In this document: piece by piece, positions 26,438 through 55,117 of the stretch | Layout of the letters: each line of letters starts with the position of its first letter | Numbering within the stretch: the stretch's first letter is position 1 | Source: Ruminococcus sp. | GTDB taxonomy: Bacteria; Bacillota; Clostridia; Oscillospirales; Ruminococcaceae | NCBI GenBank assembly: GCA_017620025.1 | Contig: JAFZRF010000029.1 | Location: 1 to 55,203, forward strand | Length of the DNA: 55,203 nt | Direction of reading: 5' to 3' | Program-made: the position numbers and the translations under genes | Notes under the pieces: generated by a model | What the model was told of the DNA's origin: nothing | Databases searched by the model: none | What the model saw: only the letters and a program-made list of their open reading frames with translations

Positions 26438-26803
26438 ATGTATCAGAGCAATCCTCTGCTTGATAAATCATTAAAATTCGCCGCAAGAATAGTCAAGCTA
26501 TATCAATATCTCGTTAAAGAGAAAAAAGAGTCAATAATCTCTAAACAAATATTAAGGTGTGGAACGTCTATCGGAGCTAACGCCAATGAAGCTGCTTACG
26601 GCATAAGTCAGGCAGATTTTATAGCAAAGCTGCAAATATCACTGAAAGAAACTGCTGAGACTGAATACTGGCTCAGGCTGCTCATACTTACGGATTACAT
26701 AGAAAAGTCTCACGGTGATTCAATGCTCGAAGATTGCCTTGAAATAAAGAAGATCCTTATCGCTTCCCTGAAAACAGCCAAAGAAAACAATAAACGTATA
26801 TAA
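26438..26803 (+). CDS. Four-helix-bundle protein (S23/IVS family)
   Basis: 121 aa. KQILRCGTSIGANANEAAYG and FIAKLQISLKETAETEYWLR are diagnostic of the four-helix-bundle family first seen in 23S rRNA intervening sequences and related to Avd of diversity-generating retroelements. GAGGAG precedes the ATG. Stand-alone members are common in accessory DNA; their function is unclear. No reverse transcriptase or variable repeat is nearby, so a DGR is not supported. Its own terminator follows. Confidence 0.85.
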   Translation: MYQSNPLLDKSLKFAARIVKLYQYLVKEKKESIISKQILRCGTSIGANANEAAYGISQADFIAKLQISLKETAETEYWLRLLILTDYIEKSHGDSMLEDCLEIKKILIASLKTAKENNKRI

Positions 26804-26807
26804 GATA

Positions 26808-26839
26808 CAACAGGCAGCCATTACGGCTGCCTGTTTTTT
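26808..26839 (+). terminator. Terminator of the four-helix-bundle gene
   Basis: CAGGCAGCC/GGCTGCCTG stem (26811-26819 with 26825-26833), then GTTTTTTC on the plus strand. It also closes the converging minus-strand operon region. Confidence 0.9.
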
Positions 26840-28794
26840 CAGCTTTGCTGCTTGTATCTTGCCATGAGGGACATAAGATCGTATTTGCACATCTCCGGCT
26901 TTGTCTCCATCAGCTTTTCCTGTGTCACAAGGCACGGGTTGCGGCGGAAGCGGTCGCTCCTCTCGCCCGCCCTCCAGCCGATAGATGCCATATAGCAGCA
27001 CCAGCGGCGGTGTTCGAGCGAGGCGAGGCTGTATGCGAAGCTGTCCTTCTTCATCAGCCCGAGCAGCTCCTCCTCCGAGCCCCTCATGCGCCATGCCGTA
27101 CCGGTATACCGCATAAGCCTGCCCTCCTTGCCGATAAGCTCCTCGAGCTTTGCGGACAGATCTGCTCCGCTCTCCTCAGCAAGCTTCGGTATGATATCGT
27201 TCTTGACCTCGTCGTGATAGGCTGCTGCCTTGCTCGATGAACGGCGGAAGAGTCTCAGCCTGTTCCACTCCTGCTCCGGATCCTTGTCGGAATTATCCGT
27301 ATTTCCGGTCTCGTCGGCTGTGAGGAGGGATATATTCTCGTAGATATGGTTGTACTGCTTGGCACTCAGGTCTATCGTGCGGTCGATTATCATATCGAGC
27401 GTGATGACTACGCTTCTGTCGTCGATCAGTCTTACGTCTGAGAGCACGTCATTCTCTGATGTGATATAGCCCGCAAGTCTTCTGTCGGTATCCATTCGCA
27501 TAAGTATCGGTGCCTTGAGCGAACGCTCGGCAAAGTACTCCTCCAGCTGAACGGCGCAGTTTACCGCAAGGTCGATATTGCTCAGCGCTATGACAGCATA
27601 GGTGTAGGGCTCTGTATCGAGCTGGCTGCGAATCATGTCATAGAAGCCCATGTGTGCGATATCGAGTTCATAGAAGTTTATCTCAAGAAGACCGTCCGCC
27701 GCACTGCTCTTCATGACAGCCTTATTGTCTGTGATATCGAAGGTATCACGGCTGAAACGGTTGAGGAACACCGACTTTTTCGACTTGATGCTGCTGTCGA
27801 TAACGTCTATTATGATACGGTTCTGCTCATGCACTACTCCGAGATTCATGGCCTGTATCACGGCTTCCTGACCGAGCTGTCCGAAGCCGGCCACAAGGAG
27901 ATGCACTGTCCAGTCCTTCAGCGGGGTGTCAGTACCCTTGTATATTGTATGCAGCGGGTAGTCGGAATACATCTTATGTATCTGCATCTCGGGAAGTCCC
28001 ATAAGCTCAAGGTCGTAGAAGGCATCCGTACCGGCTGCGCTGTTGTAATAGCCGGCGATAAGCCTTCCGATACCCTCGTCCTCACAGCGGCAGGATACCT
28101 TTGCGCCCTCTGCAAGGCGTATCCTCTCCTCGGAGTCGTTCTCGTTGAGACGGAAGAGCTGCAGCAGGGAGAAATTACGTATCGAGGAGTTCTCGAACAG
28201 GATTATATTCGTCGCCTGAGTTATATGCGTCTTTGAAAGCAGGGATTCAAGCTCCTGTGCTGGGGCCTTGAGCACATCGGCGGTATGTATCACATAGCCC
28301 GATTTATTGAGGCTGTATATTTCCTCCTGTGACATCGCCTCTGAGGTGACGATATGCACGCATACCTCCTTCGGATCGGCAGTATCGTTCCTGAGCATGG
28401 AGCGGACATCGCTGTTGAAGCCGAATACCACCACATGACGGCAGTTCTTGTTCCTGCGGAAGAAGATGATGAAGCGCAGTATCCTCTCGAGGAATTTGTA
28501 TATAAAGGAGAGGGTGCAGTACGGCGCTGTGAATACGGCTATACAGTAGGCATAGCCGATGCTTCTGCTGATAAATGACGGCTCGTCCTTTATGAATGCA
28601 ACGGTATCCTTTATAGTTACCGAGGCCTTGAATCCGAATGCGTTGATACTGTTCTGAAGAACGAGCAGCAGCTTGAAGAATGGCTCATAGTTCTTGTAAT
28701 AATTGATACCCTGTGCCGTTGCGATAAGAAAGGAAAAGACGGCAAGCAGGAATATCAGCCGGGTGGTTTTGCTCCGGCTGTTTTTATTTTTCAT
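26839..28794 (-). CDS. Membrane protein with two RCK/TrkA-N-like domains and a RyR-like C-terminus
   Basis: 651 aa. Two N-terminal hydrophobic segments (about 10-30 and 78-102) precede a basic linker. A first Rossmann-like domain starts HVVVFGFNSDVRSML (about 119) and a second starts VHLLVAGFGQLGQEAVIQA (about 295; GFGQLG nucleotide loop). The layout resembles two-helix-pore channels with tandem RCK domains, though no K+ selectivity filter (TVGYG) is present. The last ~70 residues hold SLEHRRWCCYMASIGWRAGE, the core of prokaryotic RyR domains (EHxRW...GW). The start is 13 nt after the TIR gene stop, with AGGAGGAGG. It is the second gene of that operon, so it likely works with the TIR protein as channel, sensor or regulator (inference). 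Confidence 0.7.
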   Translation of the reverse strand: MKNKNSRSKTTRLIFLLAVFSFLIATAQGINYYKNYEPFFKLLLVLQNSINAFGFKASVTIKDTVAFIKDEPSFISRSIGYAYCIAVFTAPYCTLSFIYKFLERILRFIIFFRRNKNCRHVVVFGFNSDVRSMLRNDTADPKEVCVHIVTSEAMSQEEIYSLNKSGYVIHTADVLKAPAQELESLLSKTHITQATNIILFENSSIRNFSLLQLFRLNENDSEERIRLAEGAKVSCRCEDEGIGRLIAGYYNSAAGTDAFYDLELMGLPEMQIHKMYSDYPLHTIYKGTDTPLKDWTVHLLVAGFGQLGQEAVIQAMNLGVVHEQNRIIIDVIDSSIKSKKSVFLNRFSRDTFDITDNKAVMKSSAADGLLEINFYELDIAHMGFYDMIRSQLDTEPYTYAVIALSNIDLAVNCAVQLEEYFAERSLKAPILMRMDTDRRLAGYITSENDVLSDVRLIDDRSVVITLDMIIDRTIDLSAKQYNHIYENISLLTADETGNTDNSDKDPEQEWNRLRLFRRSSSKAAAYHDEVKNDIIPKLAEESGADLSAKLEELIGKEGRLMRYTGTAWRMRGSEEELLGLMKKDSFAYSLASLEHRRWCCYMASIGWRAGERSDRFRRNPCLVTQEKLMETKPEMCKYDLMSLMARYKQQS

Positions 28795-28807
28795 CTGCCT
28801 CCTCCTT

Positions 28808-31800
28808 TCAGCCCTCGCCGAGCGCCCGGAGATATTCCCATGCGGTGCTGATCAGCTGCTTTGTGGTATATATCGGGAATACACCGGCCTTGCCGAAAAC
28901 TCTGTCATTGATGAACACCTTATCTCCATGAGCCGGTGCAGCTGCGAAATCATCTATCCTGTAGCGGACTGCAAATCTCTCAGTATCGAGCAGCCATGCC
29001 TGATCGCTGTCCCATACGACGTAGATATGCGTCCCGTCAGAGGAGGGCTTTGTCTCGAGGCGTGCGGCATTTGTGCTGTCGTAGCTGCGGATGCTGTTCT
29101 TGTCTTCGCTGCTGAAATCAAGGCGGCAGCTTCGATCAGTCATGCCCTTTTCGTTCATTTCATATATGCAGGAATCACGGCAGAGAACTGCGAAGGTATC
29201 CGCTGTGACAGGAGCAACTGATACCGGCTCCTGGCCCATACCGCTGAGAGATACCTCTACAGTGCGCTTTCCGGTGGCTGCATCGAAGAAGGATACGGTG
29301 TTGTTGCTGAAGAATACTCCCACGGTATCACTGTCCTGCCAGAAGATACGCCTTACGGCAAGTCCGAGGTCGCCGGAGAAATCGCAGTCAATACTTACAG
29401 TACTGCTGTCTGCAAAGGAGTATATCTCAAGGTACTGGAACTCCTCGTTTGCCGATTCGGCAAGCACAGCTGCTCTGTCGCCTGATACTGCGTACTTTGC
29501 ATCAACTATCTTCCTGTCAGGGGTTATTGCATCCTCTGCCTTCTGCTCCCATACACCGAAGCTGCCGTCGGCAGAAACACGCACCAGATTGCGCTCGCTG
29601 TCGGCAAGGAAGTAAACGCTGTCCCCTTCCGGGATGAACTTCATATCGGAGCGGACGACTGCGGGAACGCCCTCAACATTCTTAACGCTGCCGTCAGAGG
29701 GATCAACTATGTACGTCATATCCTGTGTACTTATGCCGCCGTCTCCGTTCGGCTCCTTGGCATTGACTATCAGCTTGCCGCTTTCTGTAAAGGCCGCAGC
29801 GTTTATGCTGTAGTCTTCAAGAGCCTTTATCTCGGTAAGCTCTCCGCCGGCGGTGCTGTAGATGAAGAAATGACGGGTTACCTTTACATCATTGCTATAC
29901 TTTCCGTCCGGATAGTAGCTTGCATACACAGCTGCAAGTGAACCGTCATCGGTTACTGCCGGGATGCTGTTTACATACATATACTCTCCGGCATCTATGG
30001 CGGTGAACATCGGGTTTTCCTCGGTGTACTGGATGTATGCGGTATTGGAATAATCGCCGGAGGTCACATACTTTCCGCGGCTGTAGCTGCAAAGCGATAC
30101 TGCGGTATCTATGGTCTGTACCCTCATGGCATCGTTGTCAGTGGCATTTCCTGTGACATAGGCGGCTACAGGGAGAACGTATTCCCTGCCGCCTGCGTCC
30201 GTTATCATAACGACGCCGTTGCGGCCGTAGGATGAATCGATGATATCGGCATCAAGAGCGATGGTCCTGAGCTCCTTGCCTGTCTCGTAGTCGATGAAGG
30301 AGATATGCCTGTTCGTCAGCGCCACAAGGATGTCATGCTCCTGCCTGCATTCAGCCGCCGGGAAATGGAACACCCTGCCGTTGTTGAAATAGTTTACCGG
30401 CAGCGTAAGGCTCCATTTCTCCGCCTTGAGCCCGTTTTCACAGCGGGTGAATGTTGATGTGAGGTCGAAGGCGGATACTTCGTTCGATATCACAATCGGC
30501 TCATCGCCGATAAACTGCATATACACATTGTGTATGGATCTTTCCTCGGCAAAGACAGCCGGAACGCTGCCCGCAGATACGAGCGCATTATCCTTTATCT
30601 CAAAGGCCTGCGCCTCATTCTTTTCGTCGTTGTAGGTATAAAGGATGCCGTCCCTGTAGTCATAGAAATCGATATCCAGCAGGATGCCGAAGGATGTATC
30701 GGAGAGATCTGATATGACAGCCTTTGCCGTCTGCGCTCCTGTCTCGCGGTCAATGATATCGAGGTAATGGTTCTTTCCCTGTATCTCGCTGCCGCCGGGC
30801 AGTACGGTCTTGTCCTGATACAGGCGGAGAATGGATTTCTCGCCGAATATTATATCATTGCATAAGTAGGCATCTTCCGGAAGGACGCTTTTCCATCTGA
30901 TACTGCCTGTTGCACCGTCAAGCCGCCATACCGTGCTGTCGGAGTTGTATATGTACACATCACCGCCGGTCCCGGGCTCGTCAGCATCTACGTCATGCAC
31001 GTAGTTGGTATGCACAACATTGAACACAGAGCTGTCTTCATACCGGGTGCTTCCCGGATCTCCCGCCTTGTCAAAGTAGGTGCCCGTCTTGTCGGGGCTG
31101 ACATCGAATACCGCAGTGAGTTCATTTGCACTGCCGTTCTTCTCCGATGCGAATTCCTCATCGGAGGCTGTTATCTTCTTTAAAAGGCCGCCCGTCACTG
31201 CGTCCCAGAAGTATACACCGGTCGCATCCTGTGATACGACGGTCACTCCGCCGCCCATGAAGGAAAGCTGCTCAACGGAGCATTCGTGCTTGAGGGCAAG
31301 GCGGGGAACGAGCTGCTGATGACGGTACATACCGAGCTCACGGGAGAGAGCGTACTCCGCCTCAGGTATTACAGGCTTCTCCTCCTGTGCGGGGAGCGCC
31401 TCTACTGCCTTCTGTATCGCAGGGATAAGGCTGTTTTCACTGAACAGGTTCTCCGATTCCACGGCAAGATGTCCGGCATTCTCAACAAGGAGGTCGGTGT
31501 TCTTCTTCTCGATCTGCTCGTTCTGAGCTATGATCTGGGTATTCTGCTCCTTGATCTGGTCGTTCTGCTCCTGTATGCGGACGTTCTTCCCGTTGATCGT
31601 GACTGCGGAGGCTATGCTTATAACGGAGATAAGGGAGAGTATACCCGTAACTCCGCCGAATATCCTTCTTCTGCGTGCGGCCTCACGGCGCTTCTCACGC
31701 TGGAAGAGGTCGTTGAAATCGCAGCCGAGAAGAGGTGCAGCTATACGGAGATACTCGGTGTTTAGCTTCTTCATCGACTCCTTGAGACTGTCCGCCGTGA

Positions 31801-32248
31801 TATTGGCGGCAAGGGGCTCGACGTCCATTCTCACCTTAACCTCGTTGCCGTTCTCGTCTGTCGTGGTAACTTCGGTATAGGTAAGCTCCTCCGGAAAGGA
31901 TTCCTGCGGCAGACCGCTTACGAGGAGGGTAATGATGTTCTCGTTGGTGTTGCCGTGCAGCTCACGGAAACGGTTGAGCTCCTGCAGGCACCACTTGGAC
32001 TCCTTATATTTCGGCGAGCATATAACGATGAGGAATTCCGAGGTCTCGACAGCATTCCTGATATTCTCGCTGAGGTCGCTGCTCGACTGGAGCTCTGAAA
32101 CATCACGGAATATGCGCCAGTTCTCCTTTGTCTTGCCGAGGCTCTTCGGCGGCTTGTAGGCTTCGAGCAGCTTCTGAAGCTTCTCGGCGGCCTGCATATC
32201 GGGCTCAAGGTGGCGGTAGCTTATAAACGCCTTGTATTTGTACTCCAT
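28808..32248 (-). CDS. Transmembrane TIR-domain protein with extracellular beta-propeller
   Basis: 1146 aa. Residues 1-150 are a TIR domain: YKAFISYRHLEPD (box 1), WRIFRDVSELQSSSDLSENI, LIVICSPKYKESKWCLQELN. Glu61 or a neighbour is the candidate NADase glutamate, not proven. One transmembrane segment lies at about 196-217. A coiled coil of repeated QNxQI units spans about 222-255. Then about 850 residues of strand-rich WD40/PQQ-like repeats end the protein. With the TIR in the cytosol, the propeller would be outside, like a Toll receptor with a propeller sensor. AAGGAG precedes the ATG. First gene of a two-gene operon with the RCK/RyR protein. Function in phage or envelope-stress sensing is inference. 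Confidence 0.8.
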   Translation of the reverse strand: MEYKYKAFISYRHLEPDMQAAEKLQKLLEAYKPPKSLGKTKENWRIFRDVSELQSSSDLSENIRNAVETSEFLIVICSPKYKESKWCLQELNRFRELHGNTNENIITLLVSGLPQESFPEELTYTEVTTTDENGNEVKVRMDVEPLAANITADSLKESMKKLNTEYLRIAAPLLGCDFNDLFQREKRREAARRRRIFGGVTGILSLISVISIASAVTINGKNVRIQEQNDQIKEQNTQIIAQNEQIEKKNTDLLVENAGHLAVESENLFSENSLIPAIQKAVEALPAQEEKPVIPEAEYALSRELGMYRHQQLVPRLALKHECSVEQLSFMGGGVTVVSQDATGVYFWDAVTGGLLKKITASDEEFASEKNGSANELTAVFDVSPDKTGTYFDKAGDPGSTRYEDSSVFNVVHTNYVHDVDADEPGTGGDVYIYNSDSTVWRLDGATGSIRWKSVLPEDAYLCNDIIFGEKSILRLYQDKTVLPGGSEIQGKNHYLDIIDRETGAQTAKAVISDLSDTSFGILLDIDFYDYRDGILYTYNDEKNEAQAFEIKDNALVSAGSVPAVFAEERSIHNVYMQFIGDEPIVISNEVSAFDLTSTFTRCENGLKAEKWSLTLPVNYFNNGRVFHFPAAECRQEHDILVALTNRHISFIDYETGKELRTIALDADIIDSSYGRNGVVMITDAGGREYVLPVAAYVTGNATDNDAMRVQTIDTAVSLCSYSRGKYVTSGDYSNTAYIQYTEENPMFTAIDAGEYMYVNSIPAVTDDGSLAAVYASYYPDGKYSNDVKVTRHFFIYSTAGGELTEIKALEDYSINAAAFTESGKLIVNAKEPNGDGGISTQDMTYIVDPSDGSVKNVEGVPAVVRSDMKFIPEGDSVYFLADSERNLVRVSADGSFGVWEQKAEDAITPDRKIVDAKYAVSGDRAAVLAESANEEFQYLEIYSFADSSTVSIDCDFSGDLGLAVRRIFWQDSDTVGVFFSNNTVSFFDAATGKRTVEVSLSGMGQEPVSVAPVTADTFAVLCRDSCIYEMNEKGMTDRSCRLDFSSEDKNSIRSYDSTNAARLETKPSSDGTHIYVVWDSDQAWLLDTERFAVRYRIDDFAAAPAHGDKVFINDRVFGKAGVFPIYTTKQLISTAWEYLRALGEG

Positions 32249-32370: not shown

Positions 32371-32542
32371 TGGGATTCTAAAGGGGCTGCGCCCCTTTAG
32401 CGGAGTCCAGAGGCAGCGCCTCTGGTGGGGTGTGGGGCAACGCCCCGCATTTTCCGCAGGGCGCTTCGCAAGGGGTGAATTCCAAAACAGTCCGGGGGAC
32501 TGTTTTGGAAGAGGGGACGCCTTGCAAGTGAAGGCGTCCCCT
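32371..32542 (-). repeat. Multi-hairpin repeat, family A copy 2 (inverted)
   Basis: 172 bp, reverse orientation relative to copies 1, 3 and 4, with all five hairpin modules. The terminal module is CTAAAGGGGC/GCCCCTTTAG and the middle stem GGGGC/GCCCC. It fills most of the 32249-32599 gap upstream of the TIR operon. Confidence 0.9.
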
Positions 32543-32599: not shown

Positions 32600-35089
32600 T
32601 CAATTCAATTGTTCTGTCATAGTATCGATGACTGTAACTCCGTCCTGTTCATAGACATTTATTGCCTTAGGCTTATAGGTGCCGTTCTTTATTGACTCCA
32701 TATATGCCATGGCCTCCTGCGGATTTGTGACGCCTTGGTGTCCGTGCATTTCACTTTCATAGATATAGCCCAGCTTTCCGTTGTCTCCGATAGCTGAGAT
32801 CAGCTTTGTATCACGGAAATCATAGCCGACAGGAATCAATATCACGTTCTTTTCTGTTGAGACAGTCGTATCATCAGCTTCGGCGCCTTCCTCAACGGTA
32901 AACGGTATGATGTGCTGCTCACTTCGGGTCCGGCTGTCATTCTCATACACGTACTTTACTAACATGTAGTTACCGGGCTCAAGGTCGCCGAATATCCAGT
33001 ACCATGTAACATCAAGGCTGAGCCTGCTGCCCACGGGTATATCATACGTATCAGCCGGGAATATTATCTTGTCGCTTCCCGTCATCGCCTCCCAGCCGTC
33101 CTCGGTCTGCCGCTCTATCCAGTAATCGCCGCGGGTAATTACATCCGCTTCCGAGCCGCTGCTGTCACGGAATACCGTAAGCCTTGCACCCCTCGGCGTC
33201 ACATTGGTTATCGCCATAGAGACGCCGTATTTGTCGCTTTCCTCAGCGGGAACGATATCTGTTTCAGATGTATCTTCCGGAGCATATCTTATCTCAAACG
33301 GCAGATAATAATCCTTCTCGTCATAGATGCTCGGAGCTCTGTAGTCCGTTACCGTCTTTACGATCCTGTATTTTCCGGGCGTGAGCTCTCCGTAGCGGTT
33401 TTCCCAGTCCAGCGTCATTACAACAGGCTCGCCCTCAGTCGGGATGAATATGCTGTCATCGGAGAATATTGAACTGCCTTTCGATATAAGTATTTTCCAG
33501 CCGTCATCTGTCAGCTGCTCTATATGAAAGCCCATGCCTGTCTGGGGAGTACCCTTCAGGTTTCCGTCACTGCTGCGGGTTATCGTCAGCTCTGCTCTCT
33601 TCGGAGTCACCTTGTTCAGTTCCATGCCTATGCCCCAGTCGGTGTCGTTTTCGGCTGTTGTCTCATCGAGTTCAGCGGAAAGTCCCATTATAGCCCTGAG
33701 GTCGTTCATATCGTAGAAGTTGAAGGACTTTGCGCCGGAGTTGCTGTCGACCACACGCTGTATATAGATGTTGTCGCACTTGTAGAGCATACCGTACTCG
33801 AATCCGACGCTGCTGACGTCTCTGATGCGATCGGAGTTTTCGTTGTCACGCACAAAGAAAGCGTATTCTTTGCCGACGATCGGCACCTCGCCGCTCTCCA
33901 CTATCTCATGATAGTATATGTTGTCTATCTCTTCCTCGGTCATTGCCAGTCCGCTGCCGTACTTGCCGCCGGTCATATAAAGCTGATCGCCCATACGGTC
34001 ACGCAGGGAAACGAAACCGCCGGCCGTTTCTATATTAACAGTATCTCCGGGAGCATATCTTCCCGCCGTATCTCCGGTCACGGTCACTTTGATGCTCGTA
34101 AAGGGAGAGGCGTCGGAGGGTCCATCCTCCTGTACCCAAGCCGTTGCCCCGTAGGATACCTCCTCGACCTTTCCGGTTATAAGGTCATCCGCATGCTTGG
34201 CGTTTTCATTGATGTCATGGATATCGTATGCGTAGTCATACTGGGCATAGCTTTCTTTGATGTTCTTTCCCTTAAGCACGGACGGAACAGAAGCCTGCTC
34301 AAATATCGTCTCCGGCACCGGCTCGTTGTTCTTCCATACGCTCTCAGCGTTAAGGTCCTCCATCTTGCACCATATAAGATGTCCCTGCAGAGCGTCAGCA
34401 GGCTCTTTCGGATTAGCGAGACCTCTGACAAGAGCAGTTACATCCTCAGACACACTGTAATTCGTTATGCTGCCGTCTTTTTCGTAACTGACCGTTCCGC
34501 CGCAGAACGCAAGGCTGAATCTCTGACCGTTGTTGTCAACGTATACAAACGTCCTCTCGCCGTCAGGCATCTGCGAATCCTCCGGAAGCTCATCCCACCA
34601 GGAGGAGTTGAATGCCTCCGCAAGCTCCGGTGCGGTAGCGTCGCTGAACGTATCGTAAACATAGGGCGCATAGGCAGTTGACATAAAGCGCACCCTGCCG
34701 CCGGAGATATCCCCGAAAGGTGCGGCAGACGACTTTTCTTCATCTGACGTGTATGCCGTCCCATCTGTTGCGGCTGTCGGGTCGACTATGCTGCCGCCTC
34801 TGAAGCCCTTCAGCAGCACTCCGCCGGTACATACTCCGGCAATAAGGACAAATGCCGAAGCGATTGCAAGTGCGCTCCGCCATACAGGTCTGCGGTAGGT
34901 CTCAACTCCGGTAACAACATTTGCGTTGTCCGTTCTGGTGATACCGCCGCCGGCTGTGCGCTTCTCACACTTCTCGAACAGCCTGTCCCTGTCCTTTTCC
35001 GATACCGGGCAGGGCAGCGCAGACAGTCTTTTTATCGTTTCCTCATCGGCGTTCTCGAGCGCCCTGAGATCTATATCTTCCTTTTTCAT
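32600..35089 (-). CDS. Large membrane anti-sigma-like protein with Ig-like repeats
   Basis: 829 aa. A cytosolic N-terminus of ~90 residues (LRALENADEETIKRLSALPC, like Firmicute anti-sigma N-termini), one transmembrane segment (about 92-115, SALAIASAFVLIAGVCTGGV) and a ~700-residue extracellular part. The latter contains two homologous ~120-residue Ig-like units, about 485-605 (MELNKVTPKRAELTITRSSD) and 620-740 (MAITNVTPRGARLTVFRDSS), each ending in a strand after ELTPGKYRIVK / DLEPGNYMLVK. It lies 12 nt downstream of the ECF sigma gene, with AGGAGG. It probably holds the sigma factor at the membrane and releases it on an outside signal (inference). Confidence 0.75.
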   Translation of the reverse strand: MKKEDIDLRALENADEETIKRLSALPCPVSEKDRDRLFEKCEKRTAGGGITRTDNANVVTGVETYRRPVWRSALAIASAFVLIAGVCTGGVLLKGFRGGSIVDPTAATDGTAYTSDEEKSSAAPFGDISGGRVRFMSTAYAPYVYDTFSDATAPELAEAFNSSWWDELPEDSQMPDGERTFVYVDNNGQRFSLAFCGGTVSYEKDGSITNYSVSEDVTALVRGLANPKEPADALQGHLIWCKMEDLNAESVWKNNEPVPETIFEQASVPSVLKGKNIKESYAQYDYAYDIHDINENAKHADDLITGKVEEVSYGATAWVQEDGPSDASPFTSIKVTVTGDTAGRYAPGDTVNIETAGGFVSLRDRMGDQLYMTGGKYGSGLAMTEEEIDNIYYHEIVESGEVPIVGKEYAFFVRDNENSDRIRDVSSVGFEYGMLYKCDNIYIQRVVDSNSGAKSFNFYDMNDLRAIMGLSAELDETTAENDTDWGIGMELNKVTPKRAELTITRSSDGNLKGTPQTGMGFHIEQLTDDGWKILISKGSSIFSDDSIFIPTEGEPVVMTLDWENRYGELTPGKYRIVKTVTDYRAPSIYDEKDYYLPFEIRYAPEDTSETDIVPAEESDKYGVSMAITNVTPRGARLTVFRDSSGSEADVITRGDYWIERQTEDGWEAMTGSDKIIFPADTYDIPVGSRLSLDVTWYWIFGDLEPGNYMLVKYVYENDSRTRSEQHIIPFTVEEGAEADDTTVSTEKNVILIPVGYDFRDTKLISAIGDNGKLGYIYESEMHGHQGVTNPQEAMAYMESIKNGTYKPKAINVYEQDGVTVIDTMTEQLN

Positions 35090-35101
35090 GGATAGCCCTC
35101 C

Positions 35102-35674
35102 TTACAATGATATACCGGCTTTTTTCAGTATATCGCCAAGCTTCTTGACCGCTCTTCCGCTCCGCACACGGACATTCTCCGGAGTCAGCGAAACAGCTCC
35201 GGCGATCTCCTTTGCAGACCGGCCGTAATAGTATTTCATAAGGATTATGGTGGAATCGGGCTCGCCGAGCGCTGCGATGCTGTCAAGTATGATCCGCCTG
35301 AGCTCCTTGCCCTCCACCTCGTTCTCGGTATCGGCAGCGGGATCACTGACTTTGCAGGCTTCATCCTCGAGCGGCACTGTCTCCGCTCCGGCTGAGTTTT
35401 TCCTGTAGCGTGCGGACGCCATGCGCCTTGCAACCACGCCTATGAATCCGGAGATATCACCGTCCGGCGCCTTGCTGTAGTCGTAGCAGCGGTAGAACTC
35501 CGCAAACACATCGCAGACGCATTCCTCGATATCCTCACGGCTCGCACAGCTTCGCAGTCTGTTGAAGACTATGGTATATACATAGTTGAAGTATTCGTCA
35601 AATACCGCCCTGTGAGCCTCCCTTGAAGAGGCCTGCGACCTTCTGTGGTATTCCTCATTCGTCATTTTCCTCAC
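35102..35674 (-). CDS. ECF-type RNA polymerase sigma factor
   Basis: 190 aa, sigma-70 family with regions 2 and 4 only. Region 2 is about 22-90 (VFDEYFNYVYTIVFNRLRSC, EECVCDVFAEFYRCYDY). Region 4 is about 130-185 (LDSIAALGEPDSTIILMKYY, then SAKEIAGAVSLTPENVRVRS as the helix-turn-helix). The start is uncertain: GTG at 35674 or ATG at 35665 three codons later, both close to purine-rich sites. It is cotranscribed with the anti-sigma-like gene. Which promoters it reads cannot be told. Confidence 0.9.
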   Translation of the reverse strand: MRKMTNEEYHRRSQASSREAHRAVFDEYFNYVYTIVFNRLRSCASREDIEECVCDVFAEFYRCYDYSKAPDGDISGFIGVVARRMASARYRKNSAGAETVPLEDEACKVSDPAADTENEVEGKELRRIILDSIAALGEPDSTIILMKYYYGRSAKEIAGAVSLTPENVRVRSGRAVKKLGDILKKAGISL

Positions 35675-54945: not shown

Positions 54946-55117
54946 AAGGGGACGCCTTCACTTGCAAGGCGTCCCCTCTTCCAAAACAGTCCCCCGGACT
55001 GTTTTGGAATTCACCCCTTGCGAAGCGCCCTGCGGATATGCGGGGCGTTGCCCCTCACCCCACCAGAGGCGCTGCCTCTGGACTCCGCTAAAGGGGCGCA
55101 GCCCCTTTAGAATCCCA
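54946..55117 (+). repeat. Multi-hairpin repeat, family A copy 4
   Basis: 172 bp with all modules: GGGGACGCCTT/AAGGCGTCCCC, CCAAAACAGTCC/GGACTGTTTTGG, GGGGC/GCCCC, CCAGAGGC/GCCTCTGG, CTAAAGGGGC/GCCCCTTTAG, AATCCCA. Lies in the gene-free 54770-55149 stretch. Confidence 0.9.

Follow-up and report, generated by a model that had tools for sequence, protein, structure and literature searches.

The window analysed here, a stretch of 55,203 nucleotides from Ruminococcus sp. (assembly GCA_017620025.1, contig JAFZRF010000029.1), carries two adjacent genes on its minus strand. Gene 1 encodes a TIR protein with a predicted double beta-propeller, gene 2 a protein with a membrane domain, two RCK domains and a C-terminal RyR domain. 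Comparison with related genomes confirmed that this pair of a TIR-propeller and an RCK-RyR gene is real. We estimate a probability of roughly 55% that the two genes form a mobile cassette in which the sensor activates the TIR domain, and a nucleotide derived from nicotinamide adenine dinucleotide (NAD) is read by the RyR domain and gates the membrane protein. Its most likely purpose would be defence of the abortive-infection type. The features are as follows (aa, amino acids; nt, nucleotides; pLDDT, predicted local distance difference test).

28808..32248, minus strand: gene 1, 1146 aa, TIR - transmembrane helix - coiled coil - double beta-propeller (open reading frame; TIR_2 above cut-off; AlphaFold2 model with mean pLDDT 79.4)
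31862..32227, minus strand: TIR domain, aa 8-129, with the putative catalytic Glu90 within WCLQE (Pfam; alignment)
31595..31651, minus strand: transmembrane helix, aa 200-218, preceded by REAARRRR, N-terminus predicted inside (hydropathy 2.17; positive-inside rule)
31439..31585, minus strand: coiled-coil stalk, aa 222-270 (helix 222-270 in the AlphaFold2 model; coiled coil judged by eye)
30020..31321, minus strand: propeller 1, aa 310-743, BamB-like
28865..30016, minus strand: propeller 2, aa 745-1128, WD40-like
28795..28807, minus strand: intergenic gap of 13 nt, holding the Shine-Dalgarno sequence of gene 2 (from the sequence)
26839..28794, minus strand: gene 2, 651 aa, membrane domain - RCK1 - RCK2 - RyR (open reading frame; model with mean pLDDT 75.0; fold search)
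28444..28773, minus strand: membrane domain, aa 8-117, with a conserved QNSINAFGF segment and APYCT, without a K+ filter
27994..28443, minus strand: RCK1, aa 118-267
27382..27915, minus strand: RCK2, aa 294-471, with GFGQLG, a nucleotide-binding-type motif (GxGxxG)
26854..27042, minus strand: RyR core, aa 585-647, with H595, W598, N619 and D639
26809..26835, minus strand: terminator-like hairpin 3' of gene 2 (5 such sites in the region versus 4.9 in shuffles, weak alone)

A scan of GTDB genomes for gene 2 yielded 29 loci (L numbers below; G numbers are genomes), mostly from Ruminococcus flavefaciens and rumen relatives, and in 27 of these the TIR-propeller gene lies directly upstream. One locus, L031, is a contig-end fragment from the same genome as L026, whose own copy runs off its contig. 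The pair also occurs in another phylum: in Fusobacterium vincentii, a gene for a TIR-transmembrane-WD40 protein (1018 aa) is followed after 3 nt by a 608-aa relative of gene 2 (21% identity, 99% of gene 2 covered, E=5e-12). An earlier, sequence-only reading of the window had proposed a co-occurrence check of the two genes, and the linkage it expected is conserved; the spacing of 13 nt that it gave is likewise correct. Evolutionary distances of gene 2 were correlated with those of the propellers (Spearman 0.94) and of the TIR domain (0.73; 276 pairs each), and with those of a control gene (0.61; 190 genome pairs). Two drafts, L007 and L014, have an interrupted TIR frame beside an open gene 2; in the draft L026, gene 2 is broken and also cut off at the contig end.

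More distant relatives keep the association in other arrangements. G1131 and G1134, two species from the genus of the window, have a divergent copy of gene 2 arranged tail to tail with the gene for another kind of TIR protein, and in a genome of another family (G1321) gene 2 comes first, followed after 3 nt by a TIR protein (Pfam) with MORN-like repeats (by eye). In this second family, the RCK-RyR profile alone matched in 14 of 220 genomes, and a TIR gene adjoins in 8 of the 14, counting L176, where it is one gene away; since G1321 is a known seed, the unseeded count is 7/13. The TIR calls came from Pfam for L084, L169, L174, L180 and L181 and from our own profile for L175, L176 and L178. A third family gave RCK-RyR matches in 7 of 63 genomes, with an adjacent TIR gene (own profile) in one of the seven, two of which are seeds. 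In 22 control regions (393,536 bp) we obtained no TIR match at all. Against this 0/22, Fisher tests gave p values of 1e-4 for 8/14, 2.6e-4 for 7/13, 5.2e-4 for 9/21, and 5.7e-4 for 8/18 (both families with seeds removed). The TIR gene of L208, 3.4 kb from the RyR gene, was not counted as linked, and a TIR-profile match in L179 was discarded because it covers residues 177-239 of a 1243-aa protein, outside the TIR core.

Judged by sequence comparison, the C-terminus of gene 2 is assigned to the RyR family, an assignment that the window protein itself reaches only below the Pfam cut-off. Two relatives of gene 2 lie above this cut-off (L071, 33.6 bits; L084, 28.2 bits), as do the three channel-type relatives that were scanned (30.5, 32.2 and 30.6 bits). 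A phmmer search of the PDB with the window protein matched a RyR1 chimera with E=5.9e-6, a value summed over two tandem copies, each of which alone is weak against the family profile (E about 0.2). The sequence-only reading had named two findings that would refute it, a lack of conserved linkage and a C-terminus without a RyR profile match, and neither came about, although the window protein alone stays below the cut-off. The candidate pocket is strictly conserved: E594, H595, W598, N619 and D639 are invariant in all 28 aligned relatives of gene 2. Three of these positions, H595, W598 and D639, would correspond to H75, W78 and D117 of the phage protein RyDEP, a mapping by motif and spacing with the RyDEP sequence itself outside the alignment. 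At the position of N619, His is found in L071, L085, L086 and the channel-type relatives.

The remainder of gene 2 may form a gating assembly. Tandem RCK domains are present, and a fold search with the model placed the predicted fold nearest to the gating rings of GsuK and CASTOR/DMI1, the latter being the top Foldseek matches (E 3.4e-7, TM-score 0.34 for the query and 0.41 for the target, root-mean-square deviation 9.3). In Pfam, RyR was the sole match (E=0.0077), with no SIR2, SLOG or SLATT. No relevant family was matched in NCBIfam or PADLOC, and no ThsA was found by Pfam, NCBIfam or PADLOC.

The TIR domain of gene 1 scored 26.6 bits with ThsB_TIR (cut-off 21.2) in a profile scan; ThcB4, a named Thoeris model of NCBIfam, gave 24.5 bits, under its curated cut-off of 220. 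W86, C87 and E90, the last of which we take to be the catalytic residue, are invariant in all 25 aligned relatives. By the positive-inside rule, the propellers are predicted to lie outside the cell and the TIR domain in the cytosol; the region of the transmembrane helix has low confidence in the AlphaFold2 model. Median identity to the window protein is 83% for the TIR domain, 88% for the linker and 49% for the propellers, with 79% for the RyR region of gene 2. No paralogous TIR-transmembrane gene was found in the window's own genome (76% complete) at E<=1e-5.

In the wider set, the linked TIR proteins carry different sensors: the double propeller in the window, PQQ plus WD40 in L180, WD40 in Fusobacterium, leucine-rich repeats in L169, NB-ARC plus TPR in L181 and MORN_2 repeats in L174. 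By these domain assignments, the sensor part is swapped while TIR and RyR persist. The putative catalytic column is Glu in 12 of 13 aligned TIR domains, the exception being a Lys in one of the two TIR domains of L176. Four TIR-linked loci (L174, L175, L176, L180) encode RyR-type EHxRW proteins with the K+ filter TVGYG. Ion_trans_2 is above its cut-off in all three of them that were scanned (L174 45.7, L176 54.8, L180 51.5 bits), where RyR is above cut-off as well. A further K+-filter RyR channel, in L177, has no TIR gene nearby.

Some of these loci have additional features. In L181 (4827-9063), a TIR-NB-ARC-TPR gene of NLR-like architecture overlaps the RCK-RyR-type gene. In L085 (1542-11348) and L202 (1294-16122), the RCK-RyR gene is part of a larger set with a protein of 1930 or 1958 aa and a protein like CASTOR-type channels with two transmembrane helices and RCK (by eye); L202 also holds two TIR genes (own profile). 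Small RyR-type proteins of 93-95 aa are encoded directly 3' of RCK-RyR genes in L204 (6548-6829), L205 (9291-9572) and L208 (886-1173). In L024 (3564-9326), the RCK-RyR gene lies upstream of a cdaA-like gene and its regulator, that is, of cyclic di-AMP synthesis (by eye).

The distribution of gene 2 is patchy. It occurs in 28 of 125 genomes of the window's genus and in 18 of the 68 of good quality (the divergent G1131 and G1134 counted), in 4/297 genomes of the family (window and distant G247 counted), in 2/11 of another genus, and in 4/295 of the order (wider profile, window counted). In the class (1/391) and the phylum (1/398), the window itself is the sole carrier. Genes within 8 kb of the cassette were common to 15 of 190 genome pairs versus 190 of 190 around a control gene, an alanine racemase by eye. 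This comparison covers 20 of 22 genomes, the ORF filter having missed the control gene in two. Cassette loci had a mean of 8.25 flank genes and control loci 13.3, some cassette loci being on short contigs; this lowers sharing somewhat and explains part of the difference, but hardly all of it. A simpler test gave sharing in 16 of 378 locus pairs. Between G1101 and G1097 the cassette protein is 91.6% and the control gene 80.2% identical, which suggests transfer. The cassette is thus apparently horizontally mobile and sits at differing chromosomal sites.

Taken together, these results suggest the following mechanism. One helix would anchor the TIR protein with the TIR domain in the cytosol and the double propeller outside, where it may detect a threat or a disturbance of the envelope. 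The TIR domains would then cluster and cleave NAD+ by means of the conserved glutamate, as other TIR families do, yielding an ADP-ribose-type nucleotide such as an isomer of cyclic ADP-ribose (cADPR). This nucleotide could bind the conserved RyR pocket of gene 2, perhaps also the Rossmann site of RCK2. The RCK gating assembly would move, the membrane domain open or reorganise, and the cell be depolarised or arrested. We include the gating step because of the predicted GsuK/CASTOR-like fold and the TIR-linked RyR channels with a K+ filter. A role of RyR domains in such signalling has precedent in phages: according to PMC13232231, phage RyR-domain proteins bind or cleave 2'cADPR and 3'cADPR, RyDEP being a glycosidase for both, and in tests of eight other phage homologues (H1-H8), six bound the signals while cleavage was seen with none. 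The sequence-only reading had already proposed that the TIR domain makes an NAD-derived signal which the RCK/RyR protein reads to gate the membrane. The TIR-linked K+-filter channels and the phage proteins (PMC13232231) strengthen this direction, and the proposal is partly supported.

Several observations weigh against this mechanism. The K+ selectivity filter is absent from the window family (0/28 aligned relatives), so that any pore there would be of another kind. The RyR score of the window's gene 2 (PF02026, 16.9 bits) is under the Pfam cut-off of 27.4, and in the proteins of Fusobacterium, G247 and L181 Pfam finds no RyR domain, their label resting on alignment and the EHxRW motif. The position taken as that of H100, which contacts phosphate in RyDEP, is Asn619 in all 28 proteins of the window family. 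Linkage is also incomplete: RCK-RyR genes without an adjacent TIR gene occur in L024 (52% identity, no TIR gene nearby), in L038, in 6 of 14 cases in the second family and in 6 of 7 in the third. Furthermore, the control for TIR density came from the window's genus and not from the second and third families, and it relied on our own small TIR profile. Finally, the cassette had no match in phages, viral contigs or ordinary plasmids, and its flanking genes are mostly ordinary chromosomal ones with no clear defence island.

The two genes could instead serve a housekeeping response to envelope or osmotic stress, in which the outer propeller reports the state of the wall or membrane and the RCK protein tunes the flow of ions. 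The predicted location of the propellers, the BamB-like character of propeller 1, the gating-ring folds and the ordinary chromosomal neighbours would all fit such a role. The patchy presence (28/125), the differing sites, the likely transfer between G1101 and G1097 and the exchange of sensors fit conflict systems better, and we regard this explanation as unlikely, with about one chance in five.

As the putative catalytic dyad H595/D639 is conserved, the chief biochemical rival is an off-switch. Here gene 2 would hydrolyse or sequester the TIR product in the manner of RyDEP and thereby shield the cell from its own TIR, following a toxin-antitoxin logic. H595 and D639, the presumed equivalents of H75 and D117 of this 2'/3'cADPR glycosidase, are indeed kept in 28 of 28 proteins. 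However, the phage homologues H1-H8 as described in PMC13232231 include six binders and no cleaver, a soluble sponge or enzyme would need neither tandem RCK domains nor a membrane domain, and RyR is found on K+-filter channels beside TIR genes. We therefore consider an off-switch doubtful and gating of the membrane protein by the nucleotide the better explanation of gene 2.

Many TIR domains are plain NADases, and the TIR protein might itself kill by NAD+ depletion, with gene 2 as a membrane scaffold or NAD+ sensor controlling it and no diffusible signal. RCK2 keeps the GxGxxG motif, and GsuK structures exist with NAD and with ADP bound (PDB entry titles), but the additional RyR pocket, which is strictly conserved, and the linkage of TIR to RyR channels in other operons make this the least probable of the alternatives.

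The surroundings of the cassette were inspected as well. Matches of flanking proteins to defence models included mad3, mad8 and AriA-like ATPases in as many as 8 members, and also AbiQ, PDC-S04 and a viperin model, among the best 25 of 71 PADLOC and the best 25 of 107 Pfam family matches. The scan covered 119 of 185 collected proteins, those left out including proteins of more than 700 aa and loci L015, L019, L025 and the window. These matches sit among mostly ordinary genes, and defence-island context was not used as evidence. A GC-rich repeat lies between the cassette and its upstream gene (window 32381-32540, extent by eye), with its core copied at 55042-55061; among the other loci collected, an exact copy of this core occurs only in L040, from the same genome. 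A dispersed upstream repeat was dropped as a mobility signal after 148 of 149 loci gave no exact match. Upstream of the cassette (32600-35674), the window encodes a sigma factor and an 829-aa Big_14 protein, and the cassette of L027 is also preceded by a related sigma-factor gene and a gene for an 833-aa protein. On the other side, a gene for a 23S rRNA intervening-sequence protein (26438-26803) is convergent with gene 2. The Fusobacterium vincentii locus (L039, NZ_CP084075.1) is on a molecule of 2.1 Mb that was deposited as a plasmid and is of chromosome size.

A broader view of these genes is tentative, with the odds somewhat against it. The cassettes might belong to a bacterial immune family of modular build, with exchangeable sensors (propellers, leucine-rich repeats, NB-ARC-TPR, MORN) driving a TIR domain whose NAD-derived nucleotide acts directly on RyR to gate an RCK ion channel. 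Such a family would be a prokaryotic counterpart of the axis of cADPR and ryanodine receptor, and would include a membrane-spanning TIR receptor that senses the outside. If true, this would add a class of ion-channel effectors to TIR signalling, and bacteria would have a TIR receptor whose sensor is predicted to lie outside the cell. It would also make a long-standing question tractable in bacteria, namely whether a channel can be gated by the direct action of cADPR-type nucleotides on ryanodine-receptor domains. In operons that combine K+ filter, RyR and TIR, such gating would be measurable by electrophysiology.

Burroughs and colleagues, in their 2015 work on nucleotide-centric conflict systems, reportedly predicted bacterial RyR domains to be nucleotide sensors. 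A pair of a TIR gene and an RCK-RyR gene is not described in the literature searched, which does not extend to that work or to the TIR survey of Yirmiya et al. 2025, either of which may contain the pairing. In PMC8195603, ryanodine occurs only within the references.

Among known systems, Thoeris is a point of comparison, with two kinds of effectors, SIR2-SLOG ThsA and TM-macro ThsA, named in PMC11204291. Like Thoeris with TM-macro ThsA, our pair joins a TIR protein to a membrane protein with a sensor for ADP-ribose-type nucleotides (PMC11204291), but here the sensor would be RyR with tandem RCK instead of macro, and the TIR protein is predicted to be membrane-anchored with a double propeller. 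The SIR2-SLOG kind likewise has a partner that reads a TIR-made nucleotide (PMC11204291), whereas gene 2 has no SIR2 or SLOG match. Since neither kind of ThsA is present, we do not file the pair as Thoeris, a comparison that spans these two kinds and not the effectors of later types. Type IV is one of these later types. Type III is named in NCBIfam and type VI in PMC13232231.

In firmicute phages, a TIR gene adjoins a SLATT effector with two transmembrane helices that is predicted to be regulated by an ADP-ribose derivative, and these pairs are predicted to act on membrane permeability (PMC9503650). Gene 2 differs in having tandem RCK and RyR domains and no Pfam SLATT; the main text of that paper makes no mention of RyR, TrkA or RCK. 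RyDEP and the phage RyR proteins (PMC13232231) appear to share with gene 2 the PF02026 family and the H, W and D pocket positions, but are described there as phage anti-Thoeris proteins, one a glycosidase and the others sponges. Gene 2 is bacterial, has RCK and membrane domains, and in the window family has Asn at the position of H100. The gating rings of CASTOR/DMI1 are its top structural matches (E 3.4e-7). To our knowledge, these plant channels have neither a RyR domain nor a TIR partner. The multi-ligand-gated K+ channel GsuK (PDB 4gx0-4gx5) resembles the modelled gene 2 in its tandem RCK domains and gating-ring fold, but has the K+ filter that the window family lacks, while the window family has an extra C-terminal RyR domain and a TIR partner.

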